From positions 1 through 64,000 of the forward strand of contig NZ_CADFDB010000010.1 in assembly GCF_902832845.1 (NCBI RefSeq): 64,000 bases of DNA, written 5' to 3'. This DNA is from Burkholderia metallica (lineage in GTDB: Bacteria; Pseudomonadota; Gammaproteobacteria; Burkholderiales; Burkholderiaceae). Both the position numbers and the translations under genes were made by a program. A model generated the notes under the pieces. That model searched no databases and was not told where the DNA came from. It worked only from the letters and a program-made list of their open reading frames with translations. Position 1 is the first letter of the stretch; each line of letters starts with the position of its first letter. This document shows, one piece after another, positions 127-31,183 of the stretch.

Positions 127-247
127 CGCCCCCGCCTCCCGTCAGGGAGGCGATTTCCGCATCACCGCCCATTCTCACGACGGAGTGCCGCCGCTCGGCG
201 CCACTCCTTCTTCCCGCCATCCATGGCGGGTTTTCTCGGAGCAACTG

Positions 248-1465: not shown

Positions 1466-1477
1466 TGCCGTGTGCAA

Positions 1478-1515
1478 CGGGCCGGCGCGCGCCACGCGCC
1501 GGCCCGTCTTTATTT
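1478..1515 (+). terminator. Rho-independent terminator after the patatin gene
   Basis: A perfect 12-bp stem (CGGGCCGGCGCG at 1478-1489 with its complement at 1495-1506) encloses a 5-nt loop and is followed by TCTTTATTT. It begins 13 bp after the patatin stop codon. Confidence 0.85.
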
Positions 1516-1525
1516 CAGATTCGAC

Positions 1526-1990: not shown

Positions 1991-2066
1991 AGCAGCACTC
2001 GGCGGATGCGAATGCGCATGCGCGCACCGCACGCGCCGCCGCGCCGGCCATCCCGCATGCCACGCG

Positions 2067-2951: not shown

Positions 2952-3069
2952 TTCCACCTCTCGTTCAAGAAAACTGAATCTGACGGTCAGTAAATTCAAC
3001 TTTTTCTATTCTAGGCGCTCGGGTGACGATACGGCTTTCCCGACCACGAACGCAAGGAACGCGACCATC

Positions 3070-4008: not shown

Positions 4009-4095
4009 GCAGGGTGCGCATGCAGGCACGGTCGAAAGCCGGCGGGGCAGGCCGATCCGCGTCGCGGCAGGCGACGCTGCCGTGCCTGCCCATCC

Positions 4096-4114
4096 TCCCG
4101 TAAAAGCTCACCTT
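4096..4114 (-). repeat. Distal iteron copy 1 (4.1 kb)
   Basis: TCCCGTAAAAGCTCACCTT on the plus strand, so AAGGTGAGCTTTTACGGGA on the minus strand. It agrees fully with the iteron consensus of the 15.9-17.2 kb origin array. It lies in the gap between the convergent argC and LysR genes. Confidence 0.85.
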
Positions 4115-4123
4115 TAGCCGGTT

Positions 4124-5047
4124 TCAGCCCATGTCGTCGCACGCCGCGGCCGTCAGGCCGGCCAGCTTCTCCATCAGAAAATCGACGCACACGCGCACTT
4201 TCGCCGACGCGGCGACGCGTTCCGGATACACGGCCCAGATGTTCGCGGGCTGGATCGCGTCGGGCAGCACGCGGCACAGTACCCCGCGTTCGATCAGCGG
4301 GCCGGCCTCCCAGATCGAGCGCAACACGATGCCGCGCCCGGCCAGCGCCCATTGCACGGCCACCTCGCCGTGATTCGTCGACAGCGCGCCGCCGACCTTC
4401 ACCGTCGCCGTTTCGCCGCGCACGTTCAGCCGCCATACGCCAAACGGATGATCGCGCTCCTTGATCGCAAGACAGTCGTGCGACGCGAGATCCGCGAGCG
4501 AGCGCGGCGTGCCGCGCCGCGCGAGATAGTCGGGCGATGCACAGAGCACGCGATAGTTCGCGGCGAGGCGGCGCGCGATCAGGTGATCGGCGATCTCGTC
4601 GCCGATACGCACGTCGAGGTCGTAGCCTTCGCCCGCGACGTCGACGAGCCGGTCGAACAGATCGAGCCGCACGTTCAGTTGCGGATAGCGCGCGGTGAAG
4701 TCCAGCAGCGCCGGCGCAATGATGTGCCGGCCGAAGCCGAAGCTGCTCGACATGCGCAGCGTGCCGCGCGGCACCGTGCGCGTGGTCGACACGTCCTCGA
4801 CGAGATGATCGACGTCGTCGAGAATCTTCTCGGCGCGCGCGAACACGCGTTCGCCGGCTTCCGTGACCGTCACGCGGCGCGTCGAGCGATGCAGCAGGCG
4901 CGTGCCGAGCTGCGCCTCGAGCAGCGCGATGCGCTTGCTGACATAGGCGGGCGACACCGCGAGCTGCTCGGCGGCCGCGCTGAAGCTGGTCAGGCGGACG
5001 ACCAGGCTGAACACGCGCAGGTCGTCGAGATTTGGCGATTTGTTCAC
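4124..5047 (-). CDS. LysR-family regulator, DmlR-like
   Basis: A regulator of about 307 residues with an N-terminal LysR helix-turn-helix (NLDDLRVFSLVVRLTSFSAA, then SPAYVSKRIALLE) and a substrate-binding domain. It belongs to the large group of LysR proteins often paired with tartrate or D-malate dehydrogenase genes. The GTG at 5047 is chosen because it starts a normal-length LysR protein; an ATG at 5116 is also open but adds residues outside the fold, and neither has a clear ribosome site. The divergent neighbour is a D-malate/tartrate dehydrogenase, so the regulator probably activates that gene in response to its substrate (inference). Confidence 0.8.
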   Translation of the reverse strand: MNKSPNLDDLRVFSLVVRLTSFSAAAEQLAVSPAYVSKRIALLEAQLGTRLLHRSTRRVTVTEAGERVFARAEKILDDVDHLVEDVSTTRTVPRGTLRMSSSFGFGRHIIAPALLDFTARYPQLNVRLDLFDRLVDVAGEGYDLDVRIGDEIADHLIARRLAANYRVLCASPDYLARRGTPRSLADLASHDCLAIKERDHPFGVWRLNVRGETATVKVGGALSTNHGEVAVQWALAGRGIVLRSIWEAGPLIERGVLCRVLPDAIQPANIWAVYPERVAASAKVRVCVDFLMEKLAGLTAAACDDMG

Positions 5048-5174
5048 GATTCGTGGAAAGTCGATTAACCTTTCGCACGATTTTAATCCGAATGGAAATA
5101 AATAGAATGGCGTCATGATCCGCTGCGCGCCACGCCGGCAGCGGCCCGACCCACGAAAAAGGAGGAGCACCCGC

Positions 5175-6263
5175 ATGAACGACAGGACTTACCGGATCGC
5201 CGTCATCCCCGGCGACGGGATCGGCCGTGAAGTGATGCCCGAGGGCCTGCGCGCGCTCGACGCCGTGACCGCGCGCTTCGGCGTGCGCTTCGACTTCGTC
5301 CAGATCGACTGGGCGAGCTGCGACTACTACGCGCAGCACGGCAAGATGATGCCGGACGACTGGAAGGCCCAGTTGTCGGGGATGGACGCGATCCTGTTCG
5401 GCGCGGTCGGCTGGCCCGCGACGGTGCCCGATCACGTTTCGCTGTGGGGCTCGCTGCTGAAATTCCGCCGCGAGTTCGACCAGTACATCAACCTGCGGCC
5501 CGCGCGCCTGTTCGACGGCGTGCCGTCGCCGCTCGCCGGCCGCCGCGCGGGCGACATCGACTTCATGATCGTGCGCGAGAACACCGAAGGCGAATATTCG
5601 TCGGTCGGCGGCACGATGTTCGAAGGCACCGACCGCGAAATCGTGATGCAGCAGTCGATCTTCACGCGCCACGGCACCGAGCGCGTGCTGAAATTCGCAT
5701 TCGACCTCGCGCAGCGGCGCGCGAAGCGCCTCACCGTCGCGACGAAAAGCAACGGCATCGCGATCAGCATGCCGTGGTGGGACGCACGCACGGCCGAGAT
5801 GGCCGAACGCTATCCCGACATCGCCGTCGACAAGCAGCACATCGACATCCTGTGCGCGCGCTTCGTGCTGCAGCCGGACCGCTTCGACGTCGTCGTCGCG
5901 TCGAACCTGTTCGGCGACATCCTGTCGGACCTCGGGCCGGCCTGTACGGGCACGATCGGCATCGCGCCTTCGGCGAACCTGAACCCCGACCGCAGGTTTC
6001 CGTCGCTGTTCGAACCCGTGCACGGCTCCGCGCCCGATATCGCCGGGCAGTTCATCGCGAATCCGGTCGCGATGATCTGGTCGGCCGCGCTGATGCTCGA
6101 CTTCCTCGGCAACGGGACGGGCCGCGAGCGCGACGCGCACGATGCGATCGTCGCCGCGATCGAAGACGTGCTGCGCGACGGGCCGCGTACGCGCGATCTC
6201 GGCGGCAACGCGGGGACGCAGGAAGTGGGTGAGGCGGTCGCCGCGCGGATCGCGGGCCGATGA
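5175..6263 (+). CDS. Tartrate/D-malate dehydrogenase (isopropylmalate dehydrogenase family)
   Basis: A 362-residue beta-decarboxylating dehydrogenase that would convert D-malate to pyruvate and CO2, or tartrate to oxaloglycolate, with NAD. Family signatures include IAVIPGDGIG at the N-terminus, NLRPARL, MIVRENTEGEYSSVGG, the metal-binding Asp region SNLFGDILSDLGP, and the NAD loop VHGSAPDIAG. The ENTEGEYS form separates this group from isopropylmalate and isocitrate dehydrogenases. A strong AAAAAGGAGGAG site precedes the ATG. It is divergent from the LysR gene with about 127 bp between start codons. D-malate versus tartrate preference cannot be told from sequence (dmlA or ttuC are both possible names). 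Confidence 0.88.
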   Translation: MNDRTYRIAVIPGDGIGREVMPEGLRALDAVTARFGVRFDFVQIDWASCDYYAQHGKMMPDDWKAQLSGMDAILFGAVGWPATVPDHVSLWGSLLKFRREFDQYINLRPARLFDGVPSPLAGRRAGDIDFMIVRENTEGEYSSVGGTMFEGTDREIVMQQSIFTRHGTERVLKFAFDLAQRRAKRLTVATKSNGIAISMPWWDARTAEMAERYPDIAVDKQHIDILCARFVLQPDRFDVVVASNLFGDILSDLGPACTGTIGIAPSANLNPDRRFPSLFEPVHGSAPDIAGQFIANPVAMIWSAALMLDFLGNGTGRERDAHDAIVAAIEDVLRDGPRTRDLGGNAGTQEVGEAVAARIAGR

Positions 6264-6763
6264 GGGTTGCCCGATGCGCATGTGCGCGCCGGGCGGTGAC
6301 GGAGGGAAGCGGCAAGCGGTGGGCAGCTAGAAGTGAACAACACGCAAAGGATGTGCGCACGCGTGCGGCTTCCGATTCGTGTCGGGTGAAGTCGAGCGGT
6401 GAGCGATGTCACGCCACAATGCGCACGGCTTGCGCTGTTTGCCGATTGAATTGATCCGATCGGTGAGTTGCACACCGCGTTCGTACACACCGATCGTCGC
6501 TGGTACTGCCCGCGCGGTTCGACCGGTGAGACGCATCACGCGGTAAAGCACACCGCTTCATGCCGACACATGCGTCGCGTCGCGCGATCCCGGCGTGCGT
6601 GACATGTCGCTTTGCCCGCTGCGAAATTGCGTCGAACGGCTCGAAGCACACAGTCCGACGCGACGTTTCACCGCGTCCCGAAAAATCTCACCTTGCGTGC
6701 ACCGACTCCCGAATTTCCTCACCGTTAAACGCCGGTGAGGTATACGTCGAGTCGATGCGCACC
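6264..6763. other. 500-bp convergent intergenic region with iteron-like repeats
   Basis: No credible gene is seen between the dehydrogenase and the convergent NTF2-like gene. The stretch contains two iterons (6676-6694 and 6707-6725) and scattered GGTGAG words without the CGGGA half near 6400, 6463 and 6525. These may be decayed copies. Confidence 0.6.
6676..6725 (-). repeat. Distal iteron pair 2 (6.7 kb)
   Basis: Positions 6676-6694 read TCCCGAAAAATCTCACCTT, the exact reverse complement of the origin iteron consensus. Positions 6707-6725 read TCCCGAATTTCCTCACCGT, a diverged copy 31 bp further on. Both have the same orientation and lie between convergent genes. Confidence 0.85.
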
Positions 6764-7243
6764 TCACAGCCCGAGGTCGGACAGCCCCGGATGATCGTCC
6801 GGACGACGGCCGAGCGGCCAGCGATAAAGACGATCCTGCTCGCGAATCGGCAGATCGTTGATGCTCGCGTGACGATGTGCCATCAGGCCGTTCTCGTCGA
6901 ACTCCCAGTTCTCGTTGCCGTACGAACGGAACCAGTTGCCGGCGTCGTCGTGCCATTCGTATGCGAAGCGCACCGCGATGCGATTGCCGCCGAATGCCCA
7001 CAGCTCCTTGATCAGCCGATAGTCGAGCTCGCGCGCCCACTTGCGCTGCAGCAGCCCGACGATCTCATCACGACCGGTCACGAATTCCGCACGATTGCGC
7101 CACCGGCTTTGCGGCGTATAGGCGAGCGACACGCGCTGCGGATCGCGCGTGTTCCATGCATCCTCGGCGGCACGCACCTTCTGGCGGGCCGTCTCGAGCG
7201 TGAAGGGGGGAACGGGCGGGCGGACTTCGGGGGAAGCGGACAT
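6764..7243 (-). CDS. NTF2-like (DUF1348-type) protein
   Basis: A 159-residue protein matching the DUF1348 branch of the nuclear-transport-factor-2 fold. The sequence [29 protein letters not shown] and the tail segment [11 protein letters not shown] are typical of it. The fold is a cone-like alpha/beta barrel that often houses a small-molecule pocket; no biochemical function is established for this branch. AGGAG precedes the ATG. It lies 63 bp downstream of a TetR gene on the same strand, so the two probably form an operon controlled by that repressor. Confidence 0.8.
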
Positions 7244-7306
7244 GGGTTGCTCCTGTTCAGGTAATGGCCACGGACGCCCGCAGCCGGTTCGGATTCGCTG
7301 CTTCGA

Positions 7307-7912
7307 CTAGCGCGATACCGCGTCGAGCAGCAGTTCGGCCGTCGCGCGCGCATCGCGCGCGGCGTTCGCATCGCCGGTCACGAGCGCCACGCCGATCGCG
7401 CCGTCGATCAGCACGAGCCATTGGCGCGCCAGGCGCGCAAGCCCGCGGCGCTCGATTCCCGTTGCGTCGGCATACGCATCGAATCGCTCGCGCACGAATG
7501 CCAGCAGGCGCGCCTTGTGCACACGTGCGACGACGCGCACGGGATCGTCCGCGTCGGGAATCTCGCCCGCAGCATTCAGGAACGCGCAACCGTGAAAATC
7601 GGGCTGCCCGAACCAGTCGCGCAGCACGTCGAACATCGCGAGCAGCTGCGCGCGCGGCGCGTTGCCGCGCGCGAGCGTTGCATCGACGAACCAGCGCATC
7701 CAGCGTGCGTCGCGACGCTCGAGCGCGGCCACGACCAGCGCCTCTTTCGATTCGAAATGCGAATAAAAGCTCTTTCGTGCCGCGCCGGATCGCTTGACGA
7801 TCGCGTCGACGCCGGTCGCATGGATGCCGCCCGAATAGATCAGCGCTTCAGCCGCATCGAGCAGCCGGTCGCGAACGCCCGGTTCGCCGGAGGGGTCGTG
7901 TGGTGTGTTCAT
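7307..7912 (-). CDS. TetR-family transcriptional regulator
   Basis: A 201-residue repressor. The N-terminal helix-turn-helix (about residues 14-60) includes RLLDAAEALIYSGGIHATGV, then VDAIVKRSGAARKSFYSHFESKEAL, the typical TetR recognition helix. The remainder is the helical ligand-binding domain. A perfect 14-bp palindrome 12 bp upstream of the start is a probable operator, so it likely represses itself and the downstream NTF2-like gene. The ligand is unknown. Confidence 0.88.
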   Translation of the reverse strand: MNTPHDPSGEPGVRDRLLDAAEALIYSGGIHATGVDAIVKRSGAARKSFYSHFESKEALVVAALERRDARWMRWFVDATLARGNAPRAQLLAMFDVLRDWFGQPDFHGCAFLNAAGEIPDADDPVRVVARVHKARLLAFVRERFDAYADATGIERRGLARLARQWLVLIDGAIGVALVTGDANAARDARATAELLLDAVSR

Positions 7913-7923
7913 GGGTTTACGGT

Positions 7924-7937
7924 AGAACGATCGTTCT
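7924..7937. promoter_or_regulatory. TetR operator candidate
   Basis: AGAACGATCGTTCT is a perfect 14-bp palindrome immediately upstream of the tetR start codon at 7912. It is the typical size and position of a TetR-family autoregulatory operator. Confidence 0.7.
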
Positions 7938-8094
7938 CCATCGTCAACACCCGCGTGAAAAAGCCCTGTCGACGGGAGGGCTGAATCGCGGCCCGGCCGG
8001 ATGAGGCGGGCCGCCGCGTTTACGACATTTTTTCTTGAAGCGGGCCCGCGACGCTCACTACACTGCGGTCACCCTGTCTGGGCGAAAGGACATC

Positions 8095-8733
8095 ATGCAG
8101 CGACCGGAATCCGCGCGCCCCGCGCGTGCCTATGCGGCTTATGCCAAGCGGCTCGACGGCCGCATCGTCGTGCGGCGCTTCGACCCGCGCAACGATTCGT
8201 ACGACACGTTGACCGCGCTGCTGCATCGCGCGTTCGCACCGCTCGGCGCGCTGGGCTTGAACTGCCCGTGCGTCGATCAGCCGGCTGCGGCGACGCGCGA
8301 ACGCGTGCTCACCGGCGAGTGCTTCGTCGCGCTCGGCAACGCACATCTGGTCGCGACGATGACGATGTATTCGCACGATCCCGATTCCCGTTGCGATCCG
8401 TACCGCAGCCGGTACGTTGCGACGCTCGGCCAACTGGCCGTCGATCCCGTCTGGCAAGATCGCGGCATCGGCCGCGCGCTGCTCGCCTTCGCGCAACGGC
8501 GAGCGGCCGCGCGCGGCGCGACGCACCTCGCACTCGACGCGCCGTACGCGGCGGTGCGGCTCATCGATTTCTATCGCCGCGAAGGCTTTCAACCGGTCGA
8601 CGTAATGCGCTTTCCGGGACACAACTACGACAGCACGATCCTGTGCAAATCCGTCAGCATTGCGAACGGTCGCTTCGTTGCCGGCGATACGACGCAGATC
8701 GACGTCACGCGGCACGCGGGTGCCGCTTCATGA
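8095..8733 (+). CDS. GNAT-family N-acetyltransferase
   Basis: A 212-residue acetyl-CoA-dependent acetyltransferase. The acetyl-CoA-binding motif A is visible as LGQLAVDPVWQDRGIGRALLAFAQRRA at about residues 110-137 (Q-D-R-G-I-G pyrophosphate loop). The C-terminal part has the typical FYRREGFQPVDVMRFPG segment. AAAGGA precedes the ATG at 8095, chosen over an in-frame ATG 20 codons upstream without a site. Its stop overlaps the start of the next gene, so the two are translationally coupled. The substrate is unknown. Confidence 0.85.
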   Translation: MQRPESARPARAYAAYAKRLDGRIVVRRFDPRNDSYDTLTALLHRAFAPLGALGLNCPCVDQPAAATRERVLTGECFVALGNAHLVATMTMYSHDPDSRCDPYRSRYVATLGQLAVDPVWQDRGIGRALLAFAQRRAAARGATHLALDAPYAAVRLIDFYRREGFQPVDVMRFPGHNYDSTILCKSVSIANGRFVAGDTTQIDVTRHAGAAS

Positions 8734-9146
8734 AGCACGATATGCCGAAGCACGACAGCAGCGACGATCGCGCCCGGCTCGCCGTCCGGCAGGCAAGCGT
8801 GCGCGCGGCGCTGCGGCTGCGCGGCGTGATCAAGCTGACGATCGTGGCGATCGCGGTCGCGCAAGCGCTGGCGTTCGCGTTCGACAGCCTGCTGGTCGCG
8901 GTCGGTTTCGCGCCGGAGGCCGCGACGGTGCTGCTGTTCCGCTTCGTGACATGCGCGCTCGTCAGCTTCTGGCTTCAGGGGGATGCGTTGCGTGCGTATC
9001 GGTACGCGGCGCAGCACGGGTTCGTCACCGGTCCCGGCGCGCACGGCGAACCGGTCGAAGTCGCGCCGCAGTGCCCGAAGCGCTGGCTCGTCGTGTTGAG
9101 CCTTCAGCTCGACCCGCGCGGGTCGAACGGTGACCGGATCAGGTAA
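8730..9146 (+). CDS. Hypothetical small membrane protein
   Basis: A 138-residue protein whose ATG overlaps the stop codon of the acetyltransferase (ATGA). Two hydrophobic stretches (about residues 34-55 and 62-83) suggest two membrane helices. The N-terminus is charged and the C-terminal ~45 residues look soluble. I do not recognise a family. The overlapping arrangement implies co-translation with the acetyltransferase. Confidence 0.65.
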   Translation: MKHDMPKHDSSDDRARLAVRQASVRAALRLRGVIKLTIVAIAVAQALAFAFDSLLVAVGFAPEAATVLLFRFVTCALVSFWLQGDALRAYRYAAQHGFVTGPGAHGEPVEVAPQCPKRWLVVLSLQLDPRGSNGDRIR

Positions 9147-9452
9147 TGGCCTGCGCACCGATCGAAGTCGATCGAGGTCGATCGATGCTGATCGCTTCGC
9201 GCACGAGTGAGTAGCAACGTCCCGTGCTGGCTCACGGTTGATGAAGCGGGTCGGCACGACATCGGGTGGCGTGTATCGTGAACGACCGCGCGGCAAGCGC
9301 GACCAGCGCGGCAGGAAAGCGTGTGAAAGAGAGGGAACAGGCGCGAAACGGCGTGATGGCAAGAAACGCGGCAGCTGGCGAAAGGTGAAGTAAGCGAGCG
9401 ATGGCGGGTCACCGAAGTGCAATCGCATCGCGATTCGGCGCGCAAACGCAGC

Positions 9453-9471
9453 TCCCGAATAATCTCACCTT
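9453..9471 (-). repeat. Distal iteron copy 3 (9.45 kb)
   Basis: TCCCGAATAATCTCACCTT is one base from the inverted origin consensus. It lies between the convergent membrane-protein gene and tdh, in the same orientation as the other distal copies. Confidence 0.85.
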
Positions 9472-9522
9472 GAGCGTGACTTCGCGCGTTTCGGCTTCGA
9501 ATACGCGGACGTAAACGAAAGC

Positions 9523-9553
9523 GGGGCAGGCGGTGAACACACCACGCTGCCCC
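9523..9553 (-). terminator. Candidate tdh terminator
   Basis: A GGGGCAG/CTGCCCC inverted repeat (9523-9529 with 9547-9553) lies just downstream of the tdh stop. It is followed on the minus strand by a moderately T-rich stretch. The loop is long, so confidence is modest. Confidence 0.45.
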
Positions 9554-9561
9554 TGCGGCAC

Positions 9562-10590
9562 TCAGGCCGTCCAGTCGAGAATCACCTTGCCGCTTTCACC
9601 GGACAGCATCGCGGCGAAGCCTTTCTCGTAATCGTCGGCCGCAAAGCGGTGCGTGATGATCGGCGACAGGTCGAGGCCGCTCTGCAGCATCGCGACCATC
9701 TTGTACCAGGTCTCGAACATCTCGCGGCCGTAGATCCCCTTGATCTCGAGCCCCTTGAAGATCACCTGGTTCCAGTCGATCGCCGTCTGCGCGGGCGGAA
9801 TGCCGAGCAGCGCGACCTTGCCGCCGTGGTTCATCGCCTCGAGCATGCTCGTGAACGCGCTCGGCACGCCTGACATTTCGAGGCCGACATCGAAGCCTTC
9901 GGTCATGTGCAGCTCGGACATCACGTCGCGCAGCGACTCGCGCGCGACGTTGACCGCGCGCGTCGCGCCCATCTTGCGCGCAAGTTCCAGCCGGTAGTCG
10001 TTGATGTCGGTGATCACGACGTTGCGCGCGCCGACGTGCTTCGCGATCGCGACGGCCATGATGCCGATCGGGCCCGCGCCGGTGATCAGCACGTCTTCGC
10101 CGACGAGGTTGAACGACAGCGCCGTGTGCGTCGCGTTGCCGAACGGATCGAAGATCGACGCCAGATCGTCGGAGATCTCCGGCGGAATCTTGAACGCGTT
10201 GAATGCCGGAATCGCCAGATACTCGGCGAACGCGCCTTCGCGGTTCACGCCGACGCCGACCGTGTTGCGGCACAGATGCCGGCGCCCCGCGCGACAGTTG
10301 CGGCAGAAGCCGCACGTGATGTGGCCTTCGCCGGACACGCGATCGCCGATCGCGAAGCCGCGCACCTCCTGTCCCATCTCGACGATCTCGCCGACATACT
10401 CGTGACCGACGTGCATCGGCACGGGAATCGTCTTCTGCGCCCAGTCGTCCCACTTCCAGATATGGATGTCGGTGCCGCAGATCGCGGTGCGGCGGATCTT
10501 GATCAGCACGTCGTTGTGGCCGACTTCGGGACGCTTCACGCGCGTGAGCGTGAGGCCGGGGCCGCGTTCGAGCTTTGCCAGTGCTTTCAT
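9562..10590 (-). CDS. tdh: L-threonine 3-dehydrogenase
   Basis: A 342-residue zinc-dependent medium-chain dehydrogenase that oxidises L-threonine to 2-amino-3-ketobutyrate with NAD. Visible features: the catalytic zinc ligand region [30 protein letters not shown], the structural zinc cysteines [15 protein letters not shown], the Rossmann loop [17 protein letters not shown], and the family signature in [24 protein letters not shown] precedes the ATG. It lies 13 bp downstream of kbl on the same strand, forming the classic two-step threonine-to-glycine operon. Confidence 0.95.
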
Positions 10591-10603
10591 GGTCGCGCCT
10601 CCG

Positions 10604-11803
10604 TCAGATGATGCCGAGCGACTTGCCGACGCGCACGAACGCGGCGACCGTCCGGTCGATCTGCTCGGGCGTATGCGCGGCGCTCATCTGCGTACGGATG
10701 CGCGCGCGCCCGCGCGGCACGACGGGGAACGAGAATCCGATCACGTAGACGCCTTCGTCGAGCAGCTTGTCGGCCATGTTCGTCGCGAGCTGAGCGTCGC
10801 CGAGCATCACCGGGATGATCGGATGCGCGCCCGGCACGAGCGTGAAGCCCGCTTCGGTCATCTGCTTGCGGAACCGCGCGCCGTTTTCGCGCACGCGCTC
10901 GCGCAGTTTCGCGCCTTCGTCGCTGCCGAGCAGTTCGAGCACCTTCAGCGATGCCGCGGCGATGCTCGGCGTGAGCGTGTTCGAGAACAGGTACGGGCGC
11001 GAGCGCTGGCGCAGCAGCTCGATCACCTCGCGACGCGCGGCGACGTAGCCGCCCGATGCGCCGCCCAGCGCCTTGCCGAGCGTGCCCGTGATGATATCGA
11101 CGCGCCCTTCGACGCCGCAGTGCTCGGGCGTGCCGCGGCCGTGCGTGCCGATGAAGCCGACCGCGTGCGAATCGTCGACCATCACGATCGCGCCGTAGCG
11201 GTCGGCGAGGTCGCAGATGCCTTTGAGGTCGGCGATGATGCCGTCCATCGAGAACACGCCGTCGGTCGCGATCAGCTTGTGGCGCGCGCCCGCCGCATCG
11301 GCTTCCTTGAGCTTCGCCTCGAGATCGGACAGGTCGTTGTTCTTGTAGCGGAAGCGCTTCGCCTTGCAGAGACGAACGCCGTCGATGATGCTTGCGTGGT
11401 TCAGCTCGTCGCTGATCACCGCGTCGTTCTCGTCGAGCAGCGTTTCGAACAGCCCGCCGTTCGCGTCGAAGCAGCTCGAGTAGAGGATGCTGTCCTCGGT
11501 GCCGAGGAACGCGGCCAGTGCGCTTTCCAGTTGCTTGTGCACGGTTTGCGTGCCGCAGATGAAGCGGACCGATGCCATGCCGAAGCCGTCCTGGTCGAGC
11601 CCGGCCTTCGCCGCGTCGATCAGGCGCGCGTCGTTCGCCAGACCCAGATAGTTGTTCGCGCAGAAATTGAGCACGCCGGCACCGCCGGCGAGCCTCACGT
11701 CCGCCGCCTGGGGACTCGCGATCTCGCGCTCGGTCTTGTAAAAACCGTCCGCGCGGATCTGGTCCAGCGTCCCGCGCACCTGGGCGAGAAAGGCATCACG
11801 CAT
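10604..11803 (-). CDS. kbl: Glycine C-acetyltransferase (2-amino-3-ketobutyrate CoA ligase)
   Basis: A 399-residue PLP enzyme of the alpha-oxoamine synthase family. It cleaves 2-amino-3-ketobutyrate with CoA to glycine and acetyl-CoA. The PLP lysine is in [15 protein letters not shown], and the cofactor-binding segment [12 protein letters not shown] is present. The ATG at 11803 with AGGAG before it gives the standard family length; the upstream in-frame ATGs are rejected. First gene of the kbl-tdh operon, divergent from an XRE-cupin regulator (about 160 bp apart). Confidence 0.95.
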
Positions 11804-11887
11804 CGCAAAGCTCCTGACAGGGTTTCGCATTCCGCAACGCGCCACTCGTGGCGGCGGCGCAACGGCCTGCTACTGTTATAGTCGGTC

Positions 11888-11941
11888 GTTCGGTTGACCG
11901 CATTTATCCGATATTCCGAACTAAAATTCGAAATACCGAAC
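11888..11941. promoter_or_regulatory. Repeated CCGAAC half-sites between kbl and the XRE regulator
   Basis: ATTCCGAAC at 11913-11921 and ATACCGAAC at 11933-11941 are direct repeats exactly 20 bp apart (about two helical turns). An inverted GTTCGG lies at 11888-11893. The stretch is AT-rich compared with its surroundings. It is a likely operator for the adjacent XRE-cupin regulator acting on both divergent promoters. Confidence 0.55.
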
Positions 11942-11964
11942 AACTCTAAGCGAACGGAATCCAA

Positions 11965-12576
11965 ATGGCAAGTTCCCCCGGTTCGCGGCGCACGCCCGCC
12001 AGCGCCGCCCCGCAACCGCCGGCCGCCACGCCGCCGCGCGTCGGCGAGCAGATCCAGCGGCTGCGCAACGAGCGCAAGCTGACGCTCGACGACCTGTCGC
12101 GCGCGGCCGGCGTATCGAAATCGATGCTCTCCGAAATCGAACGCGACAAGGCCAACCCGACGATCGCCGTGGCGTGGCGCCTGACGAACGCGCTCGGCAT
12201 CACGCTCGACGAGCTGTTCTCGCAGCCGAAGGCGCCCGAAACCATCCGCGTGGACGGCCCGCACGACATTCCGACGCTCGCCGGCCACGACGGCCGCTAC
12301 CAGTTGCGCGTATGGGGCCCGATCGACCTCGCCGGCAAGTTCGAGTGGTACGAGCTGACGTTGCCGGGCGGCGGCGCGTTGATATCGAACGCACACGAGC
12401 CCGGCACGCGCGAGCACCTCACCGTGCTGCAGGGCGCGATGGAGATCGAAGCCGCGGCGGCCAGCCGGCGCCTGAAGGTGGGCGACACCGCGCGCTACCC
12501 GGCCGACGAGCCGCACGCGATCCGCAATCCCGGCAAGGCCGAGGCGCGCGCACTGCTTATCGTGATACACCGCTGA
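11965..12576 (+). CDS. XRE-family regulator with C-terminal cupin domain
   Basis: A 203-residue regulator. Residues ~27-85 form a Cro/XRE helix-turn-helix (GEQIQRLRNERKLTLDDLSRAAGVSKSMLSEIERDKANPT is the span; key helix SKSMLSEIER). Residues ~125-200 form a small cupin beta-barrel with GTREHLTVLQGAMEIE and YPADEPHAIRNPG. The ~25-residue Ala/Pro-rich N-terminal leader may be disordered. HTH-cupin proteins often regulate adjacent amino-acid catabolism genes by sensing a metabolite in the cupin. Its divergence from kbl-tdh suggests control of threonine degradation (inference). Confidence 0.88.
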   Translation: MASSPGSRRTPASAAPQPPAATPPRVGEQIQRLRNERKLTLDDLSRAAGVSKSMLSEIERDKANPTIAVAWRLTNALGITLDELFSQPKAPETIRVDGPHDIPTLAGHDGRYQLRVWGPIDLAGKFEWYELTLPGGGALISNAHEPGTREHLTVLQGAMEIEAAAASRRLKVGDTARYPADEPHAIRNPGKAEARALLIVIHR

Positions 12577-12636
12577 CGGCACGAATAGCTGGCCGAACGG
12601 CCAGGGGGATCTGTCGCAGGCCAGTTGCGGAAATCA

Positions 12637-12652
12637 CTGTATATTTGTACAG
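12637..12652. promoter_or_regulatory. LexA (SOS) box
   Basis: CTGTATATTTGTACAG fits the CTGT-N8-ACAG LexA operator of beta- and gammaproteobacteria. It lies inside a longer near-palindrome, ACTGTA-N6-TACAGT with GTATA/TATAC flanks. It is centred about 80 bp upstream of the ATG at 12725 in an otherwise GC-rich region, in a normal position for a promoter-overlapping operator. Confidence 0.8.
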
Positions 12653-12724
12653 TATACGGACATTCCGCCATGCACGGGCCGGAGCCGGCGCACCGAGGCG
12701 CCGCCCGGTCGACAGGAGCCTGCA

Positions 12725-13102
12725 ATGACAGAAGAACAAGATTTGGCCGCGCTCAGCTTCAAGGCTGCCGCGCACGACCTCGAGCTGATCGTTCGGCATA
12801 TCGCCGGGCGCTACATCCGCCAGCGCGTCCCGCTGACGTGGCGCCTGCTGCACGCAATCGAAGCCGAGGCGCTCGCCGATCTCGGCTTTGCCAGCCGGCA
12901 CGAGGCCGGCATGCGTCAACTGTTCGAACGGCCGTCGGACATGACGTTTCCCGAAACGGACGATCCGATCGACTTCGGGCGCTCGAATGCGCTGCCCGCC
13001 GTATTTTCGTTCGCGGTCCTCGCGTACGAAGCGGCGTCGGCGTCGCACGACGCCGCGCATCGCGAGCGTGTTCACCGTCCGTCCAAGGCGTGGGGCGACT
13101 GA
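12725..13102 (+). CDS. Hypothetical protein behind a LexA box
   Basis: A 125-residue, mostly helical, acidic protein of no family I recognise. No signal peptide, membrane segment, Cys pair or nucleotide-binding motif is visible. AGGAG lies a few bases before the ATG. The LexA box upstream is the only promoter-like signal, so it is probably induced by DNA damage. A degenerate tyrosine-recombinase gene follows 103 bp downstream and could be co-transcribed. It is neither an umuD/imuA relative nor a toxin that I can identify. Confidence 0.65.
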   Translation: MTEEQDLAALSFKAAAHDLELIVRHIAGRYIRQRVPLTWRLLHAIEAEALADLGFASRHEAGMRQLFERPSDMTFPETDDPIDFGRSNALPAVFSFAVLAYEAASASHDAAHRERVHRPSKAWGD

Positions 13103-13205
13103 TCGCCGGCCACGGGCTGCCATGCGTGGCGGCCTTGCTCATTTTCTTGCTGCCCGAGACGTTGCGGAAAGGGCTACCATATACGCAACTAACGGAATAA
13201 ATCAC

Positions 13206-14225
13206 ATGTCCCTTCCCGCCTCTCCCGACACCCCGGCACGCCCGGAAGAAACGGACCTGTTCGACCGCGGCGCATCCGACTGGATCGTCTCGCCCGAAGC
13301 CGCATTCGATGCGTGGCTCGCGATGCAGGACTATCGCCGCTCGTCGGCCGACGTCTATCGCGCGCAGTGGGGCGCGTTTCTCACGTGGATGCGGGCGCAC
13401 CAGAAAACCCTCGAAACGGTCGATACCGCCACCATCGCGAATTTCGTCGGCGAACTGCCGATCCGGAAAACCCAGCGAATGCGCTATTTGCGGCTGATCG
13501 AGCGCGTGCTCGACCACATCCGGCGCACCGAATACGCGTCGACCAACCCGGCCCGGTTCATTGCTCAGGATGGCGAAGCGAACTGGCGCAAGGCGCGCGA
13601 CAACGAACCGACCGGTTTCCTCACGCCGGCCGAGCGCGCGACGTTGCTCGCATACCTGTTTTCACCGATCGGCGTATCGGGTTCCGCGTACTGGAAAGAG
13701 CGGCGCGACCGCGCGCTCGTCGCTGCGTTTCTCGGCGCGGGCATCAAAACCGGCGAAGCCCGTGCACTCACGATTAGTTGCATCAATACGAGCGGCACGG
13801 CGCTGCGGATCGCGTCGACGCATCCGGATTTCGCGCGCGAAACCCACCTCGCGTCATTCGCGATCGCGCTGCTCGAAGCCTGGCTCACCGAACGCAAGCG
13901 TCAGGACATTCCCGGTGAACTCGTGTTCCCGGCCTCCCACACGGGGCGGCCGATGCACAAGGCGACGATGCTGCGCGCGATCGACGCGATCGTCGAATCC
14001 GCCGGGCTCACGTCGTCGCGCACCGCCCGCGCGAGCCCGCAAACGCTGCGCAATACCTACGCGGCCGAACTGTTCGAACACGACGTGCCGCCCGAACGCG
14101 TCGGCAAATGGCTCGGCTTCGTGCGGCCGGTCTCGTCGAATCGCCTGCATCGTGCGTGGAAAAACTGGCGCGACGGGCTGGCCGACAGCAACGGTGACGC
14201 GTCCGACAGCGACGAAACTCACTGA
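13206..14225 (+). CDS. Tyrosine-recombinase-fold protein lacking most catalytic residues
   Basis: A 339-residue protein with the layout of a phage integrase/XerD: an N-terminal core-binding domain (about residues 30-120, EAAFDAWLAMQDYRRSSADVYRAQW) and a C-terminal catalytic-like domain (about 137-320). The expected catalytic set is R-K-H-R-H/W-Y. In AFLGAGIKTGEARAL the first Arg is Lys181. In the ASPQTLRNTYAAEL box the His is Gln279 while Arg282 remains. The LGH box reads WLGFV, with Phe305. At the nucleophile position there is Leu314, and no Tyr follows. It is therefore probably unable to cleave DNA and may be a DNA-binding architectural protein. It sits between the LexA-box gene and the KfrA-like gene beside the origin. 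The frame is intact with normal codon use, which argues against simple decay. Confidence 0.75.
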   Translation: MSLPASPDTPARPEETDLFDRGASDWIVSPEAAFDAWLAMQDYRRSSADVYRAQWGAFLTWMRAHQKTLETVDTATIANFVGELPIRKTQRMRYLRLIERVLDHIRRTEYASTNPARFIAQDGEANWRKARDNEPTGFLTPAERATLLAYLFSPIGVSGSAYWKERRDRALVAAFLGAGIKTGEARALTISCINTSGTALRIASTHPDFARETHLASFAIALLEAWLTERKRQDIPGELVFPASHTGRPMHKATMLRAIDAIVESAGLTSSRTARASPQTLRNTYAAELFEHDVPPERVGKWLGFVRPVSSNRLHRAWKNWRDGLADSNGDASDSDETH

Positions 14226-14296
14226 TCGCCGAACGGCTGCTCACGCGAAGCGATCCGTGAGCAGCCTCGTGTGGCGCAGCCTCACCGTTTCACAGC

Positions 14297-14339
14297 TCCC
14301 GAAAAACCTCACCTCAAGCGTCCCGGATCGTCTCACCTG
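14297..14339 (-). repeat. Distal iteron pair 4 (14.3 kb)
   Basis: TCCCGAAAAACCTCACCTC at 14297-14315 and TCCCGGATCGTCTCACCTG at 14321-14339, starts 24 bp apart. Both are in the inverted orientation, in the gap between the convergent recombinase-like gene and the KfrA-like gene. Confidence 0.85.
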
Positions 14340-14361
14340 TGCGGTGCGGCCGAACCTTGCA

Positions 14362-15561
14362 TCACGAGTGCGCAAAACGGGCGGCCGCTTCGAATCGCGA
14401 CGGCCATGCGCCCGACGCGTGCTCACACTCGGGGCACGTCACTTCAAAACCATCTTCTCCATGTGACAACTCCGGCTCGCCGTCGCAATGCGGACATTGA
14501 GCCGGCACCGGAATGTCGTGATCCAGCGACGTGCCGATCGCGGCAAACGCTTCGGCATCCAGTTGCCCGGCATCGGCCAGGCGACGGATCAGCGCGGCGA
14601 TTTCCGGATTCATGCCGCGGCTCGCGCGCAATGCGTTCGCCTCGCGCGTCGCACGTTCCAGTTCGTCGCCCTGGGTGCGCAATTGATCTTCGAGCCGGTC
14701 GGCGCGCGCCTTCGCCGAACTCAATTGCTGCAGGAAATCGAACTCCTTGCGCTGAACGTCGCGCAAGCCGCTCTGATAGGTCGCTGCCATGCTGCGCAAC
14801 GAATCCAGCTCGACCAGCATCGGCTTGACGCGGCGTTCGGCTTCGGCCACCGCGTCCTTGATCTGCTGCGCGTAGTGCTCGGTGCGCTGTTGCAGTTCCG
14901 CTTGCAGGGCATCGATGCGGTCGCGCAACGTGGCGTTATGAGCCTGTTCGGCTTCGACGCGCACGCCGGCCGCGGCCAGCTCGTTCTCCAGTCGAGCGAT
15001 TGTGGTGAGCAACGTCGCTTCGCTTGCCGAACCGTGCGTCGTTTGCGACGCGAGCTGGACCTCGAGTTCCGTCACGCGCGCCTGCAATTGCTCGTTTTTC
15101 GCTTCGCCGCGCACGAGTGCGGCTTCGAGGGTTTCCTGGCGCACGGTTGCATCACGCAACCGCTGTTCGGCGTCGGCGATGCTGGCGCGAACCTGCTCGC
15201 GATCGCCGTCGAGGCTGTCCCGCGCGGCTTTCAACGCTTCTTCATAGAGTGCGCCGAGCAACGCGCCGGCTTTTTCCTCGACGGCTTTCGGGATGGCGGC
15301 GCCGTCGAGCCTGACTCGGGAAGCCGAACGGATGCGTTCCCAGAAATGGTCGATGTCTTTCGGGATGTCGCTCGCGCTGCCGGTCTGGGTGAGATCGCGG
15401 ACGTTGGCAGCCGACGGCCGAATGCCCAGATCGAAGAACAACCGCTTGCACGCGTGCAGCGACAATTCCTGCCGTCGCGCGCCGCTTGCACGCAGCGATT
15501 CCAGTTCGTCCCGAATGGCGTGGCGGATTTCGTCCAGGGTCATCGCTGTGCTCACAGACAT
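14362..15561 (-). CDS. KfrA-like coiled-coil DNA-binding protein with C-terminal zinc ribbon
   Basis: A protein of about 399 residues. The N-terminal part (about residues 7-95) fits the KfrA_N DNA-binding domain of plasmid proteins. A long Glu/Gln/Arg-rich helical region (about 125-315) is a clear coiled coil with heptad-like leucines. The C-terminus has CPHC (356, 359) and CPEC (376, 379), a four-cysteine zinc ribbon that I do not associate with classical KfrA. Plasmid KfrA proteins bind DNA, polymerise and help segregation or compaction. Its position between the origin field and the recombinase-like gene fits a replicon-maintenance role (inference). The start at 15561 is one of two possible; ATG at 15543 would remove six residues. 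Confidence 0.75.
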   Translation of the reverse strand: MSVSTAMTLDEIRHAIRDELESLRASGARRQELSLHACKRLFFDLGIRPSAANVRDLTQTGSASDIPKDIDHFWERIRSASRVRLDGAAIPKAVEEKAGALLGALYEEALKAARDSLDGDREQVRASIADAEQRLRDATVRQETLEAALVRGEAKNEQLQARVTELEVQLASQTTHGSASEATLLTTIARLENELAAAGVRVEAEQAHNATLRDRIDALQAELQQRTEHYAQQIKDAVAEAERRVKPMLVELDSLRSMAATYQSGLRDVQRKEFDFLQQLSSAKARADRLEDQLRTQGDELERATREANALRASRGMNPEIAALIRRLADAGQLDAEAFAAIGTSLDHDIPVPAQCPHCDGEPELSHGEDGFEVTCPECEHASGAWPSRFEAAARFAHS

Positions 15562-15820
15562 TGAAATGTGGCAATCATAACGAAATACGTAGCTATCGAT
15601 ACTGATTCCCGGTCGACGTTGTGAATTTACGTCGCTTTGCACAGAAATCAGGGCTGTGAGCGAATCCAGACGACTGTGGTGCAGGATTCCGTGAAACAAA
15701 GCGAAGAAAGTGAGCCAAGTCCTTGTCGCGCAAGCATTTTCCAGCAGACCCCGAATTTGGGCATTTGTTTCACATGACGGGGCATCCGGTCGGCTGCGGG
15801 TGTTCAGGGGTTCGGGTGTC

Positions 15821-15905: not shown

Positions 15906-15936
15906 CAGCCTTATGCAGCAAGGCTTTCCGGCCGAC

Positions 15937-16043
15937 AAGGTGAAGTTTTACGGGAGCCAAGGTGATCTTCTGCGGGAGCTGACGTGATGGGGTTCAGGGA
16001 ACTGCGTGAGCCGTTGCGGGAAAGGTCGTGAGCGGATTCGGGA
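15937..16043 (+). repeat. Helically phased iteron block (five copies)
   Basis: Five 19-bp copies start at 15937, 15959, 15982, 16003 and 16025, spaced 21-23 bp apart (about two helical turns), so bound initiators would align on one face. The first two are close to consensus (AAGGTGAAGTTTTACGGGA and AAGGTGATCTTCTGCGGGA). The last three keep mainly GTGA and GGGA. Confidence 0.8.
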
Positions 16044-16068
16044 TCACAGTGAAATGCAAGTTTTCCCA

Positions 16069-16874
16069 AAGGTGAGGTTTTTCGGGGCCTCACAGCCACA
16101 GAACCCGCGCGGTGCCTGACTGCACAGTTTTCTGCCTGTGCAGACATAAGTGAGAATTTGCGGGACCCTCTTCGTGCCCCGTTTCTGCCCATCTTTTAGG
16201 CAGATTCTGTGAAAGGTGAGATTTCACGGGACTCCGCAGTCATTTGGTGTGAGGTTTTCCGGGAAACGAACGCCATTGTGCACAGCAAAAGTGCGCTCGG
16301 GGGGCCGTGATGCCCTAAAGGTGAGGTTTTACGGGAGGGAAATCGGGGTTTTCCTGCCCGGATCCCGTTGAGGTGAGCTTTTTCGGGGCCCGGATCACAG
16401 GCTGTGATTCGGAGTAAAGGTGAGCCTTTTCGGGGATGGACTGTGCCCAATAATTGGTCATAGGTGAGGCTTTTCGGGAGCTGTGAGCCGCCGGATTCGC
16501 CGAAAAGCCCGCCAGGACTGGGAGAAATCTCGTTTTTGCTGTGCCACTTTTTGGCACAGGTGAGATTTTTCGGGGGCCGACACAGGGTTGTCGTATGAAG
16601 GATTTCCGTCGAAAGGTGAGGCTTTTCGGGGGATGTCCGCCGCGGACCGCCAAATGCCTTGTGCGCATAAGTATCGGAAGACATTGGGATTTTTGATACC
16701 GCGGCAGTTACGGTGAGATTTTTCGGGAGCGATTTCCGTGCCTGTGGGAGCACAGCGATTTTTGGGTAAGGTGAGCGTTTTCGGGAGACTCCGGCAGCGG
16801 ACCCCGTGTGTGTCGGGCATTCCGCGACCTCCCGACGAATCGACATGCTGTGCTGAAGGTGAGCATTTTCGGGA
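16069..16874 (+). repeat. Main iteron array (fourteen copies)
   Basis: 19-bp copies of AAGGTGAGNTTTTTCGGGA start at 16069, 16147, 16213, about 16246, 16318, 16370, 16417, 16461, 16557, 16613, 16710, 16768 and 16856, plus partial matches. GGTGAG and CGGG(A/G) are nearly invariant and the centre is T-rich. Spacing is irregular (33-97 bp), unlike the phased block. All are in the same direction as repA. Confidence 0.9.
16658..16671. promoter_or_regulatory. parS-like half-diverged site inside the origin
   Basis: CTTGTGCGCATAAG keeps the central TGTGCGCATAA of the variant parS sites at 20865 and 19891 but lacks the outer bases. It may be a weak ParB site or chance similarity. Confidence 0.35.
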
Positions 16875-17113
16875 CCAGACCCGGTTCGTGCGCTGTACAA
16901 TGCGCGCCCGGGCCGGCAAAGGAGGTCCGATCGGCTCCCGCCAGCAAGGTTCACAGGCTTCTTCCGGGATGTCGGACCCATTGCGAATCTCGCCGGAAGT
17001 CACGCCTGTACATGCATACAGGCCGACACAAGCCGATCGCGAGGCGCGTTCAACCGGGATCGCAACGCTGTGTCGAACACAGCGTGCGCAGTCGTAAAAT
17101 TGCGACAAATTGA

Positions 17114-17244
17114 AAGGTGAGCCGATACGGGAGCACATTTCGCACGTGTCGCGCACAGGTGAAATTCTGTGAATCGGCGTCTCCCGCAGCACGTCTGGAC
17201 GAGTCCGGAACGCTGCAAATCCGGACCGGTGAGGGTTTTCGGGA
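17114..17244 (+). repeat. Promoter-proximal iterons upstream of repA
   Basis: AAGGTGAGCCGATACGGGA at 17114-17132 and CCGGTGAGGGTTTTCGGGA at 17226-17244. Diverged matches lie near 17153, 17250 and 17289. The second copy ends about 120 bp before the repA start, so RepA binding here could repress its own promoter, as in iteron plasmids. Confidence 0.75.
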
Positions 17245-17363
17245 GCGCTTGGGGTGAGTGCCGTTTTGCGCGAGCGCTTCACCTGCTATGGTGAGCATGT
17301 CGTTCTGGACGCACATCACCGCAGGCGCTATCCTTCCGGGAAACTTCTCCTCCGACCCGACGT

Positions 17364-18731
17364 ATGGCCACGACGAAGCGCGCCAAGAAAACCGATGTGG
17401 ATGTGGTGAGTGCCAGTTCTGCCGAATTGCGTAAGGCCGTCGAGGCGATCGCCATTCAGCCGAAGAGCGGCAAGATCACGCTCCTCACTCGCAAGCTGTT
17501 CAATGTCCTGCTGGCCGTGGCGCAGCAGGCCGACGACTCGGGCGATACGTATCGTGCGCTGCTGTCGGACATCGTCGCCAACTCCGCTTTCGATTCGAAC
17601 GACACCGCGCTGGTGAAGGAACACCTGCGCCGCATGGTGTCGGTGCAGGTCGAATGGAGTACGGGCACATCGAGCCAGAAGCCGGGCCGCAAGTGGGGGA
17701 TCTCGACGCTGATCGCCGACGCCGAAATTCTCGAGGATCCGACGACCCGCCGTGTGTGGGTCGAATTCTCGTTCGCGCCGAAGATCAAGAAGAAGCTGCT
17801 CGACCCGGTGCAGTATGCACGTCTGAGCCTGCAGTTCCAGAGCCAGCTGCGCAGCAGCGCCGGTCTCGCGCTGTACGAAATCTGCGTGCGCTACCTGACG
17901 AATCCGAGCCACCTGACGATGCGCGAGCCGTGGGAATGGTGGCGGCCGATCCTGTCGGGCACGCCCGATACGGAAGCCGGCGACGAGGCGAAGCGCGAGT
18001 ACAAGTATTTCAAGCGCGACTACCTGCGTCCCGCGATCGCGGAAGTCAACGCGGTCACCAACATCTTCGTCGAGCTGATCGAGCACCGCGAAGGGCGGCG
18101 GGTCGCCGAAATCCAGTTCCGCGTGACCGAGCGCAAGCAGCCGATGCTCGCGCTCGACGAACACCCGAACGTGTTCGACAGCACGCTGGTCGACCGGATG
18201 GTGAAGCTCGGGATCCCGCTGAAGGAAGCGCAGACGCTCTATGCGGACAGCGAGGAGAATCGCATTCGCGCCGCGCTGCAGATGACCGAGCAGCGGATGC
18301 GCAGCACGACGCTGCCGCCGGTGCGCAGCGCGCCCGCGTTGTTCAAGGATGCGCTGAAGAAGGGGTATGCGCCGCCGGTCGAGTCGGTCGATGCACTGCC
18401 GGCCGGCACGCCGGCCGCGAAGATGGCGGCGGCCCAGCCGGACGATCTGAAGGCGCGCCTGCTGAGCGAGTTCGCGGCGTTCCGCCGCAAGGAAGCGAAG
18501 GTGCTGTACGAAGAGCAGGGCGACGCCGAGCGCGAAGTGGCGCGCGAGTCGTTCGAATCGGAGGCGCTGCCGACGATGGGCTCGCACCTGCGCGACGACT
18601 GGCGCAAGCGCGGCCTCGATTCCAAGCTGGCCGAGACGGCCTTTTTCGACTGGCTGGCCCAGAAGACCTGGGGCGAGCCGACGGACGGCGACCTGCTGTC
18701 GTTCACGCTGAACCAGTCGCGGGCCGCCTGA
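17364..18731 (+). CDS. repA: Chromosome 2 replication initiator, RepB/Rep_3-like
   Basis: A 455-residue initiator. Residues ~35-250 form the paired winged-helix region of plasmid RepB/Rep_3 initiators (KITLLTRKLFNVLLAVAQ, SLQFQSQLRSSAGLALYEICVRYL, REYKYFKRDYLRPAIAEVNAVTNIFVELIEHREGRRV read in pieces). The C-terminal ~200 residues are a less conserved helical extension found in secondary-chromosome initiators. It should bind the upstream iterons and open the origin. No Shine-Dalgarno is evident before the ATG, suggesting weak, limiting expression. It is convergent with parB. Confidence 0.92.
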   Translation: MATTKRAKKTDVDVVSASSAELRKAVEAIAIQPKSGKITLLTRKLFNVLLAVAQQADDSGDTYRALLSDIVANSAFDSNDTALVKEHLRRMVSVQVEWSTGTSSQKPGRKWGISTLIADAEILEDPTTRRVWVEFSFAPKIKKKLLDPVQYARLSLQFQSQLRSSAGLALYEICVRYLTNPSHLTMREPWEWWRPILSGTPDTEAGDEAKREYKYFKRDYLRPAIAEVNAVTNIFVELIEHREGRRVAEIQFRVTERKQPMLALDEHPNVFDSTLVDRMVKLGIPLKEAQTLYADSEENRIRAALQMTEQRMRSTTLPPVRSAPALFKDALKKGYAPPVESVDALPAGTPAAKMAAAQPDDLKARLLSEFAAFRRKEAKVLYEEQGDAEREVARESFESEALPTMGSHLRDDWRKRGLDSKLAETAFFDWLAQKTWGEPTDGDLLSFTLNQSRAA

Positions 18732-30074: not shown

Positions 30075-30334
30075 CGCGCCGCGGGCGCCGGATTGCGCCC
30101 CGGCCGGCCGCGCTTGCCGGCCAGCGCGTTGCGGCACGCCGCCCGGCGCGGCGCGTGTCCGCCATCGAACTTCAAAGATTGCTATACTTTCGGCCATTTC
30201 CGGCTTCCGGCCGGTAATTTGTGCCTGTCTGCGTCGATCGTTCGCATATCTCGCACGCATTTGACACCCTGACCATCCCCCGCCGGGCATGGCTTCTTCA
30301 ATCGCCCCGCGTGGGTGTCTCCGTGGAGCTCGTC

Positions 30335-31183
30335 TTGGCCGTTTCCCATTCCGTCGTGGACGAACCAGAAACCGACGCCGCTGCCGTCACATCGGGCAGT
30401 TCCTTCTACCTTGCGATGCGCATCCTGCCTGCCGTGCAGCGCGATGCGATGTTCCAGGTCTACGCGTTTTGCCGCGCGGTCGACGACATCGCCGACAGCG
30501 ACCTGCCGCGCGCCGAGCGCAACGCGGGCCTCGACCGCTGGCGCGCGGACATCGACGCGTGCTACGCCGGCCGCCCGCCGCGCCATCTGGCCGCGCTCGA
30601 CCGCGAGATCCGCGCATTCAACCTGCAGCGCGACGACTTCCACGCGATGATCGACGGCATGGCGATGGACGCGGTCGAAGACATCTGCGCGCCCGACGAA
30701 CCGACGCTCGACCTCTTCTGCGATCGCGTCGCGAGCGCGGCCGGCCGGCTGTCGGTGAGGATATTCGGGATGCCGGAAGCCGAAGGGATCGAGCTGTCGC
30801 ATCACCTCGGCCGCGCGCTGCAACTGACCAACATCCTGCGCGACATCGACGACGATGCGGCGATCAACCGGTGCTACCTGCCGCGCGAACTGCTCGCGCG
30901 CGAAGGCATCGCGATCACCGACCCGGCGACGATCGTGCGCAATCCGGCGCTGCCGCGGGTGTGCGCGACGCTCGTCGAGCGCGCGCTCGAGCACTTCCGC
31001 CAGGCCGACGCGGTGATGGATACCTGCCCGCGTGCGCAGGTGAAGGCGCCGCGCATCATGTCGGGCGCGTACCGCTGCATTCTCGAAGCCGCGATCGCAC
31101 GCGGCTTCGCGTTCCCGCGCGCGCCGCTGCGCAAGCCGAAGGCGCGCATGTTGATGATCGCCGCGCGCTACGCGCTGTTCTGA
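30335..31183 (+). CDS. hpnD: Presqualene diphosphate synthase HpnD
   Basis: A squalene/phytoene synthase family enzyme of about 282 residues. The two Asp-rich motifs that bind farnesyl diphosphate via Mg are DDIAD (50-54) and LTNILRDIDDD in the second half. In the HpnCDE pathway HpnD condenses two farnesyl diphosphates to presqualene diphosphate. The TTG at 30335 is chosen because GGAG lies six bases upstream; GTGs at 30311 and 30323 are open alternatives. First gene of hpnD-hpnE-shc-hpnG; HpnC is not in the window. Confidence 0.88.
   Translation: MAVSHSVVDEPETDAAAVTSGSSFYLAMRILPAVQRDAMFQVYAFCRAVDDIADSDLPRAERNAGLDRWRADIDACYAGRPPRHLAALDREIRAFNLQRDDFHAMIDGMAMDAVEDICAPDEPTLDLFCDRVASAAGRLSVRIFGMPEAEGIELSHHLGRALQLTNILRDIDDDAAINRCYLPRELLAREGIAITDPATIVRNPALPRVCATLVERALEHFRQADAVMDTCPRAQVKAPRIMSGAYRCILEAAIARGFAFPRAPLRKPKARMLMIAARYALF

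Follow-up and report, generated by a model that had tools for sequence, protein, structure and literature searches.

The window analysed in the present study comprises the first 64,000 bp of contig C10 (C10:1-64000) in the 7.55-Mb, 37-contig assembly of Burkholderia metallica (G000), and it includes a replication origin at which a Rep3-family initiator gene, repA2, is adjoined by direct-repeat iterons, the arrangement of iteron-controlled (Rep3) replicons (Table 1). The window repA shares 95.8% and 95.2% DNA identity with chromosome-2-sized records of B. cenocepacia and B. arboris, respectively, and the window therefore contains the chromosome-2 origin (ori2) of a cepacia-complex species. Among solved structures, RepA2 matched the pi protein alone at a threshold of <0.1 (2nra_C, E 0.0072). 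Genes in the window were called by hand based on open reading frames (ORFs), codon-position GC content and protein families. Upstream of the array, six additional iteron copies occupy four intergenic gaps (argC/LysR, tartrate dehydrogenase/DUF1348, GNAT acetyltransferase/zinc alcohol dehydrogenase, and tyrosine recombinase/KfrA_N); these distal sites, or satellites, and their counterparts elsewhere are the subject of this report.

Sites were scored using a 23-bp matrix built from the 19 array copies in 15.9-17.3 kb, one fewer than the 20 counted in a first-pass annotation of the sequence. A third-order Markov null model (64 Mb simulated) yielded 1.72, 0.75, 0.17 and 0.06 hits per Mb above 14, 16, 18 and 20 bits, respectively. 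The six distal copies reported in the first-pass annotation scored 17-33 bits with the matrix, compared with 0.17 null hits/Mb >18 bits, and are real, as is their reported inversion, with all six on the minus strand and all 19 array copies on the plus strand. In score, the strong satellite members match the array copies. Outside the array, the six distal sites and a match at 30751, the window maximum was 8.5 bits. The 30751 match was set aside as probably coincidental, being in the frame of a squalene/phytoene synthase, though matches at a similar distance recur in other genomes. Our gene calls agree with the earlier observation that all four site-bearing gaps are convergent, but not with the weight given to it: convergent gaps account for 2180 of the 2724 intergenic bp (80%) in 185-15564, so convergence adds little beyond intergenic location, and one more convergent gap (1465/2067) has no site. 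For gaps already known to be intergenic, the chance that four out of four are convergent is p ~0.4 (0.80^4). The informative part is the intergenic location itself, convergent gaps making up 14% of that span.

Conservation in other species, named in the first-pass annotation as a check on its reading, is strong. From the best 80 RepA-anchored loci, 78 with at least 4.5 kb of upstream sequence were examined, representing Burkholderia, Paraburkholderia, Caballeronia and Trinickia. A site >18 bits was present at -2.8 to -4.0 kb in 76 of these 78 loci, on the inverted strand only in 74, and 32 loci had two or more such sites in this interval. A genus-level set of 60 Burkholderia loci (60 of the 64 repA2 places besides the window's own) contained 326 inverted sites and one direct site more than 2.9 kb upstream. 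The satellites recur at set distances, filling the -3 kb bin in 55/60 loci, the -8 kb bin (-7.8 to -8.5 kb) in 45/60, the -10 kb bin (-9.5 to -11 kb) in 43/60, the -13 kb bin (-12 to -14.7 kb) in 55 of the 59 loci reaching that distance, and the -17 kb bin in 20/48. Site cores at -3, -8, -10 and -13 kb had identities of 0.93, 0.94, 0.93 and 0.90, compared with 0.67, 0.57, 0.54 and 0.48 for their flanks. In Paraburkholderia xenovorans LB400, a twelfth genome, clusters among the matches listed were located upstream of the array at distances of ~18, 30 and 54 kb; the two nearer clusters are inverted, the farthest is not.

The right arm was initially described as free of such copies, which is true of the window apart from the 30751 match. 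Outside the window it is not, since the same contig carries a second array of c2-type iterons (array2) between a coenzyme A-ligase/acetyltransferase gene and a 190-aa ORF without a Pfam match. Array2 has inverted satellites of its own, and the first of these (L001 5290) lies directly against an H-NS gene end. Location on the repA-downstream side, main-array orientation and an inverted satellite ~3 kb before the array were found in 11/11 Burkholderia genomes with pattern matches listed (G000, W01, W02, G001, G002, G003, G013, G037, G038, G059 and G062), and the distance from array2 to repA2 in these 11 ranged from 130 to 208 kb.

The view that these copies are particular to this region was not contradicted by a search of the whole assembly with the pattern GGTGAGNNTTTNCGGG rather than the full matrix. 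A total of 24 exact matches were obtained, comprising 20 on C10 (window field and second cluster), two on C6, one on C2 and one on C19. Allowing up to one mismatch, the true pattern gave 44 matches in the assembly and a reversed control pattern one. The C6 matches are a pair adjoining the window by synteny: the C6 end is the window's left neighbour and carries this further inverted pair. The C2 match is one member of a pair beside the chromosome-3 origin (ori3). Across five complete genomes, 112 of 123 exact matches were located at the origin field, the second cluster, the +13 kb coding site or ori3. A control site on chromosome 1 was considered but not adopted. Contig C1, taken as chromosome 1, had no exact match in G013 or G059, one each in G037 and G038, and three in G062. 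No site >14 bits was detected in two fetched chromosome-1 dnaA regions, a scan to which a crtS site without iteron likeness would be invisible. Two sites on LB400 chromosome 1 (14223 and 4764280) each have an identically scoring DnaA-model hit at a distance of ~160 bp. These hits we take to be insertion-sequence ATPases.

The C2 pair maps to a 1.18-Mb contig of Burkholderia sp. MS389 (G001:C3), which we assign to chromosome 3, although its record is titled complete chromosome 2, because repA3, a c3-type array and par genes are present and dnaA is absent. Among the 65 genomes searched, 53 had a RepA3 at least 95% identical; both members of the c2-type pair (>14 bits) were present at 41 of these loci, a single site at five and none at seven. 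Pairs were counted in the direction of repA3 only, and those listings contained no minus-strand hit. The members are 33 bp apart in 34 of the 41 pairs (34 bp in five, 35 in one and 32 in one) and lie ~1.5-1.7 kb upstream of repA3 (mostly ~1.6-1.7 kb), except in G033 (3.0 kb). Identity was 0.91 in the core, 0.41 in the spacer and 0.47 in the flanks, which include the other member. Six scored pair members were of c2 type, with 16.6 to 30.2 bits in the c2 matrix versus -7.6 to 12.7 bits in the c3 matrix. A c2-type pair spaced 34 bp was also found on 7/7 plasmids fetched from the 20 records that largely matched the query, namely pBCJ2315 and six pBCJ2315-like plasmids. It lies ~90 bp downstream of a gene that most records annotate as ParB/RepB/Spo0J, for whose product Pfam gave only weak helix-turn-helix matches. 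Based on the gene map, the ori3 pair, the plasmid pairs and two array2 satellites lie outside convergent gaps. Scanning 60 chromosome-2 left arms with the c3 matrix produced no c3-type site >17 bits; one plasmid member and one window site scored 12.7 and 13.3 bits with this matrix. A c3-type match of 18.6 bits is present on chromosome 2 at window position 51663 (minus strand). Far from ori2, chromosome 2 of both G001 and G003 also contains a c3 match with one mismatch and identical letters.

Table 1 Iteron arrays, satellites and neighbouring genes. Positions refer to the window unless a contig or locus is named
Feature	Location	Strand	Basis
Distal iteron, argC/LysR convergent gap, -13 kb from repA2	4093..4115	-	32.0 bits
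Distal iteron, strong pair member, -10.7 kb	6673..6695	-	30.0 bits
Distal iteron, weaker pair member, 31 bp from partner at 6673	6704..6726	-	19.6 bits
Distal iteron, -7.9 kb	9450..9472	-	31.5 bits
Distal iteron, strong member of -3 kb pair	14294..14316	-	32.8 bits
Distal iteron, weaker member of -3 kb pair, 24 bp from partner	14318..14340	-	17.1 bits
Origin iteron array, 19 copies of GTGAN7CGGG, single orientation	15936..17247	+	Repeat and matrix scan
repA2, Rep3-family initiator of chromosome 2	17364..18731	+	Pfam Rep3_N 3.5e-12, Rep3_C 7.7e-10
Array2, second c2-type iteron array, ~23-bp steps	C10:152542-152811 (L001 8540-8816)	+ (as main array)	Pattern search
Array2 inverted satellites, ~3 kb before array2	L001 5290, 5591, 5613		Pattern search
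LB400 remote iteron clusters (among matches listed)	G004:C2 23766-25226, 35386-35445, 59074-59439		Pattern search
c2-type pair beside ori3	L090 6345 and 6378; L002 7751 and 7784		Matrix scan
Plasmid c2-type pair, 34 bp apart, MOBF conjugative plasmids and G000 contig C15	L260 21121 and 21155; L261-L266; L007 4478 and 4512		
Tyrosine recombinase (Phage_integrase; XerD-like far below curated cut-off)	12987..14225	+	Family searches
KfrA_N-domain protein gene, between -3 kb pair and array	14362..15564	-	Pfam KfrA_N 2.5e-20
Weak iteron-like match in coding sequence, probably outside the system	30751..30773	+	17.5 bits; squalene/phytoene synthase ORF 30221-31183

Based on their sequence and layout, the six copies are probably external RepA2 sites belonging to a larger conserved set, and would serve mainly as a sink for the initiator and as handcuffing partners of the origin. 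This set comprises the origin array, the inverted single or paired satellites on the repA-upstream arm 1.6 to ~17 kb from the array, and array2 with its own inverted satellites. RepA2 is predicted to bind all of these, and binding to lower initiation: each firing would soon double the competing sites, free RepA2 would fall and early re-firing would be blocked, while handcuffing of the inverted satellites with the array, in which orientation may matter, would be another use of the same sites. At a published fork rate of 33 kb/min, satellites within ~17 kb would be copied about half a minute after initiation and array2 after ~4-6 minutes, times that fit a sink closing the origin after firing, as has been argued for external RctB sites.

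Several observations weigh against this interpretation. The one-orientation rule is its least explained feature, simple titration needing no fixed orientation. The genomes compared are related, such that locus counts are not independent events, and the footprint sites were picked by matrix score, so that core conservation is partly built in; fixed places and orientation are a firmer argument than the contrast between core and flanks. No clear contrast was seen in the -17 kb set (n=17; core 0.56, flanks 0.50). Only the -3 kb site appears to be an old fixed feature, because the LB400 clusters (among the matches listed) are placed elsewhere. The remaining 11 of the 123 exact matches in complete genomes were scattered, where a reversed control gave one match.

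The notion of an early-copied titration locus is shared with datA of Escherichia coli, which acts on DnaA and not on a plasmid-type initiator. A closer likeness is to Vibrio cholerae, where RctB binds external sites on chrII, six of 12 of which lowered mini-chrII copy number, and where the early duplication of these sites was likened to datA (Baek and Chattoraj 2014, PMC3937223). In both systems, the secondary chromosome itself carries initiator-type sites away from its origin, near ori2 and copied early. In Burkholderia, the initiator is of Rep3 type, the putative external sites include satellites that are ordered and inverted as well as an entire second array, and copies extend to other replicons. 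In B. cenocepacia J2315, a supplementary legend in Du et al. 2016 (PMC4948915) mentions a second c2 cluster, located 140 kb anticlockwise, and further ones "throughout the genome"; the iteron is the same, the printed consensus being the reverse complement, whereas satellites, orientation and conservation are analysed here and c2-type sites on c3 and p1 are added. A passage of the same article reports no obvious shared regulation of the c1 and c2 origins, save 7-mers of speculative role (PMC4948915). In our literature search we recognised no account of satellites in such an ordered layout, nor of plasmid or ori3 pairs of c2 type, though S1 Table or S2 Fig of Du et al. 2016 might show some. The ori3 pair recalls V. 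cholerae crtS in being an initiator-related site in trans on another replicon; as reviewed in PMC6090056, however, crtS is on the primary chromosome and not iteron-like, whereas the Burkholderia pair is iteron-like and on chromosome 3.

The copies on other replicons raise the tentative possibility, from sequence likeness, that RepA2 acts at ori3 through the c2-type pair, which would join chromosome 2, chromosome 3 and some plasmids in a network of inter-replicon coupling. The pair's presence at 41/53 loci with a conserved core, mostly 33-bp spacing and c2-type scores is in keeping with this, as are the lack of c3-type sites >17 bits in the 60 chromosome-2 left arms, the 34-bp pair on all seven fetched pBCJ2315-like plasmids, and the published segregation order of c1, c2, p1, c3. 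However, the pair is absent from 7/53 loci and is therefore not essential, and published reports describe c3 timing as only loosely tied to the cell cycle and c3 as curable from many strains. Nor is the one-way traffic airtight, given the c3-type matches at window position 51663 and on chromosome 2 of G001 and G003, together with the 12.7 and 13.3 bits reached in the c3 matrix by a plasmid member and a window site, and the plasmid pair adjoins a parB-annotated gene, not a recognised origin. The more specific proposal that RepA2 bound to the ~33-bp-spaced ori3 pair gates chromosome-3 firing, with one initiator level coordinating several secondary replicons including conjugative plasmids, must be considered doubtful.

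Three further explanations were considered. In plasmids, recombination relocates arrays and rep genes, and the satellites might be decayed, now functionless remains of older and wider origin arrays; one member of each window pair is indeed weak (19.6 and 17.1 bits), but positions and orientation were kept across many species while the flanks changed, and strong members score like array copies, making this unlikely. Another protein, such as the KfrA-like neighbour or a nucleoid protein, might bind the motif at origin and satellites alike. The KfrA_N gene between the -3 kb pair and the array and the H-NS gene ending at an array2-cluster satellite are suggestive here, yet the motif forms direct repeats in an array next to the gene of a Rep3 initiator, where such an initiator's own iterons usually lie, and we regard this explanation as quite improbable. 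Finally, a G/T-rich motif may be kept on the leading strand for fork-related reasons, as are KOPS and Chi, in which case "inverted" would simply denote the other replichore. Such a leading-strand rule predicts a left arm almost entirely on the minus strand and array2 on the plus strand, as found, but it fails for the right-arm satellites of array2, which are on the opposite strand in 11/11 genomes, and for the clustering of 112/123 exact matches in five complete genomes; we judge it highly improbable.

An initiator sink with handcuffing, our preferred interpretation, would bear on the timing of secondary chromosomes outside Vibrio. Passages of a 2026 survey note that the third replicons in strains of Burkholderia seem to complete replication earlier than the chromosome, that the B. 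cepacia chromosome-2 origin contacts much of chromosome 1, and that finding further "timers" would extend present knowledge. With the sites described here, chromosome 2 offers a set of defined candidates for deletion and ori3 a specific cis element, such that both self-limitation of chromosome 2 and a link between chromosomes 2 and 3 become directly testable. If true, control of ori3 by RepA2 would constitute an iteron-based link between replicons, unlike crtS. Taken together, the layout suggests a spread-out control of when secondary chromosomes copy themselves.

A number of additional observations were made on the surrounding genes and contigs. The KfrA_N-domain protein, whose gene sits between the oldest satellite pair and the array, has weak SMC-like matches below cut-off. 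The 467591-bp contig C6 has dnaA close to one of its ends and the left flank of chromosome 2 at its opposite end, and is either a chimeric contig or the product of a chromosome 1/2 rearrangement; the sole 16S gene found in the assembly is on C11. The C19 site (30.6 bits), on a chromosome-3 contig by synteny, was rejected as strain-specific, as the matching chromosome-3 flanks of three genomes had no site >14 bits; its core letters recur on chromosome 3 of G037 and G038. Chromosome 3 also has apparent remote c3-type sites of its own, ~12-13 kb and ~138-154 kb from ori3 (L257 3948, L255 3735, L259 3990/4231 and L256 4695/4936); in each of the two genomes examined, those at ~138-154 kb form an inverted pair with a spacing of 241 bp.

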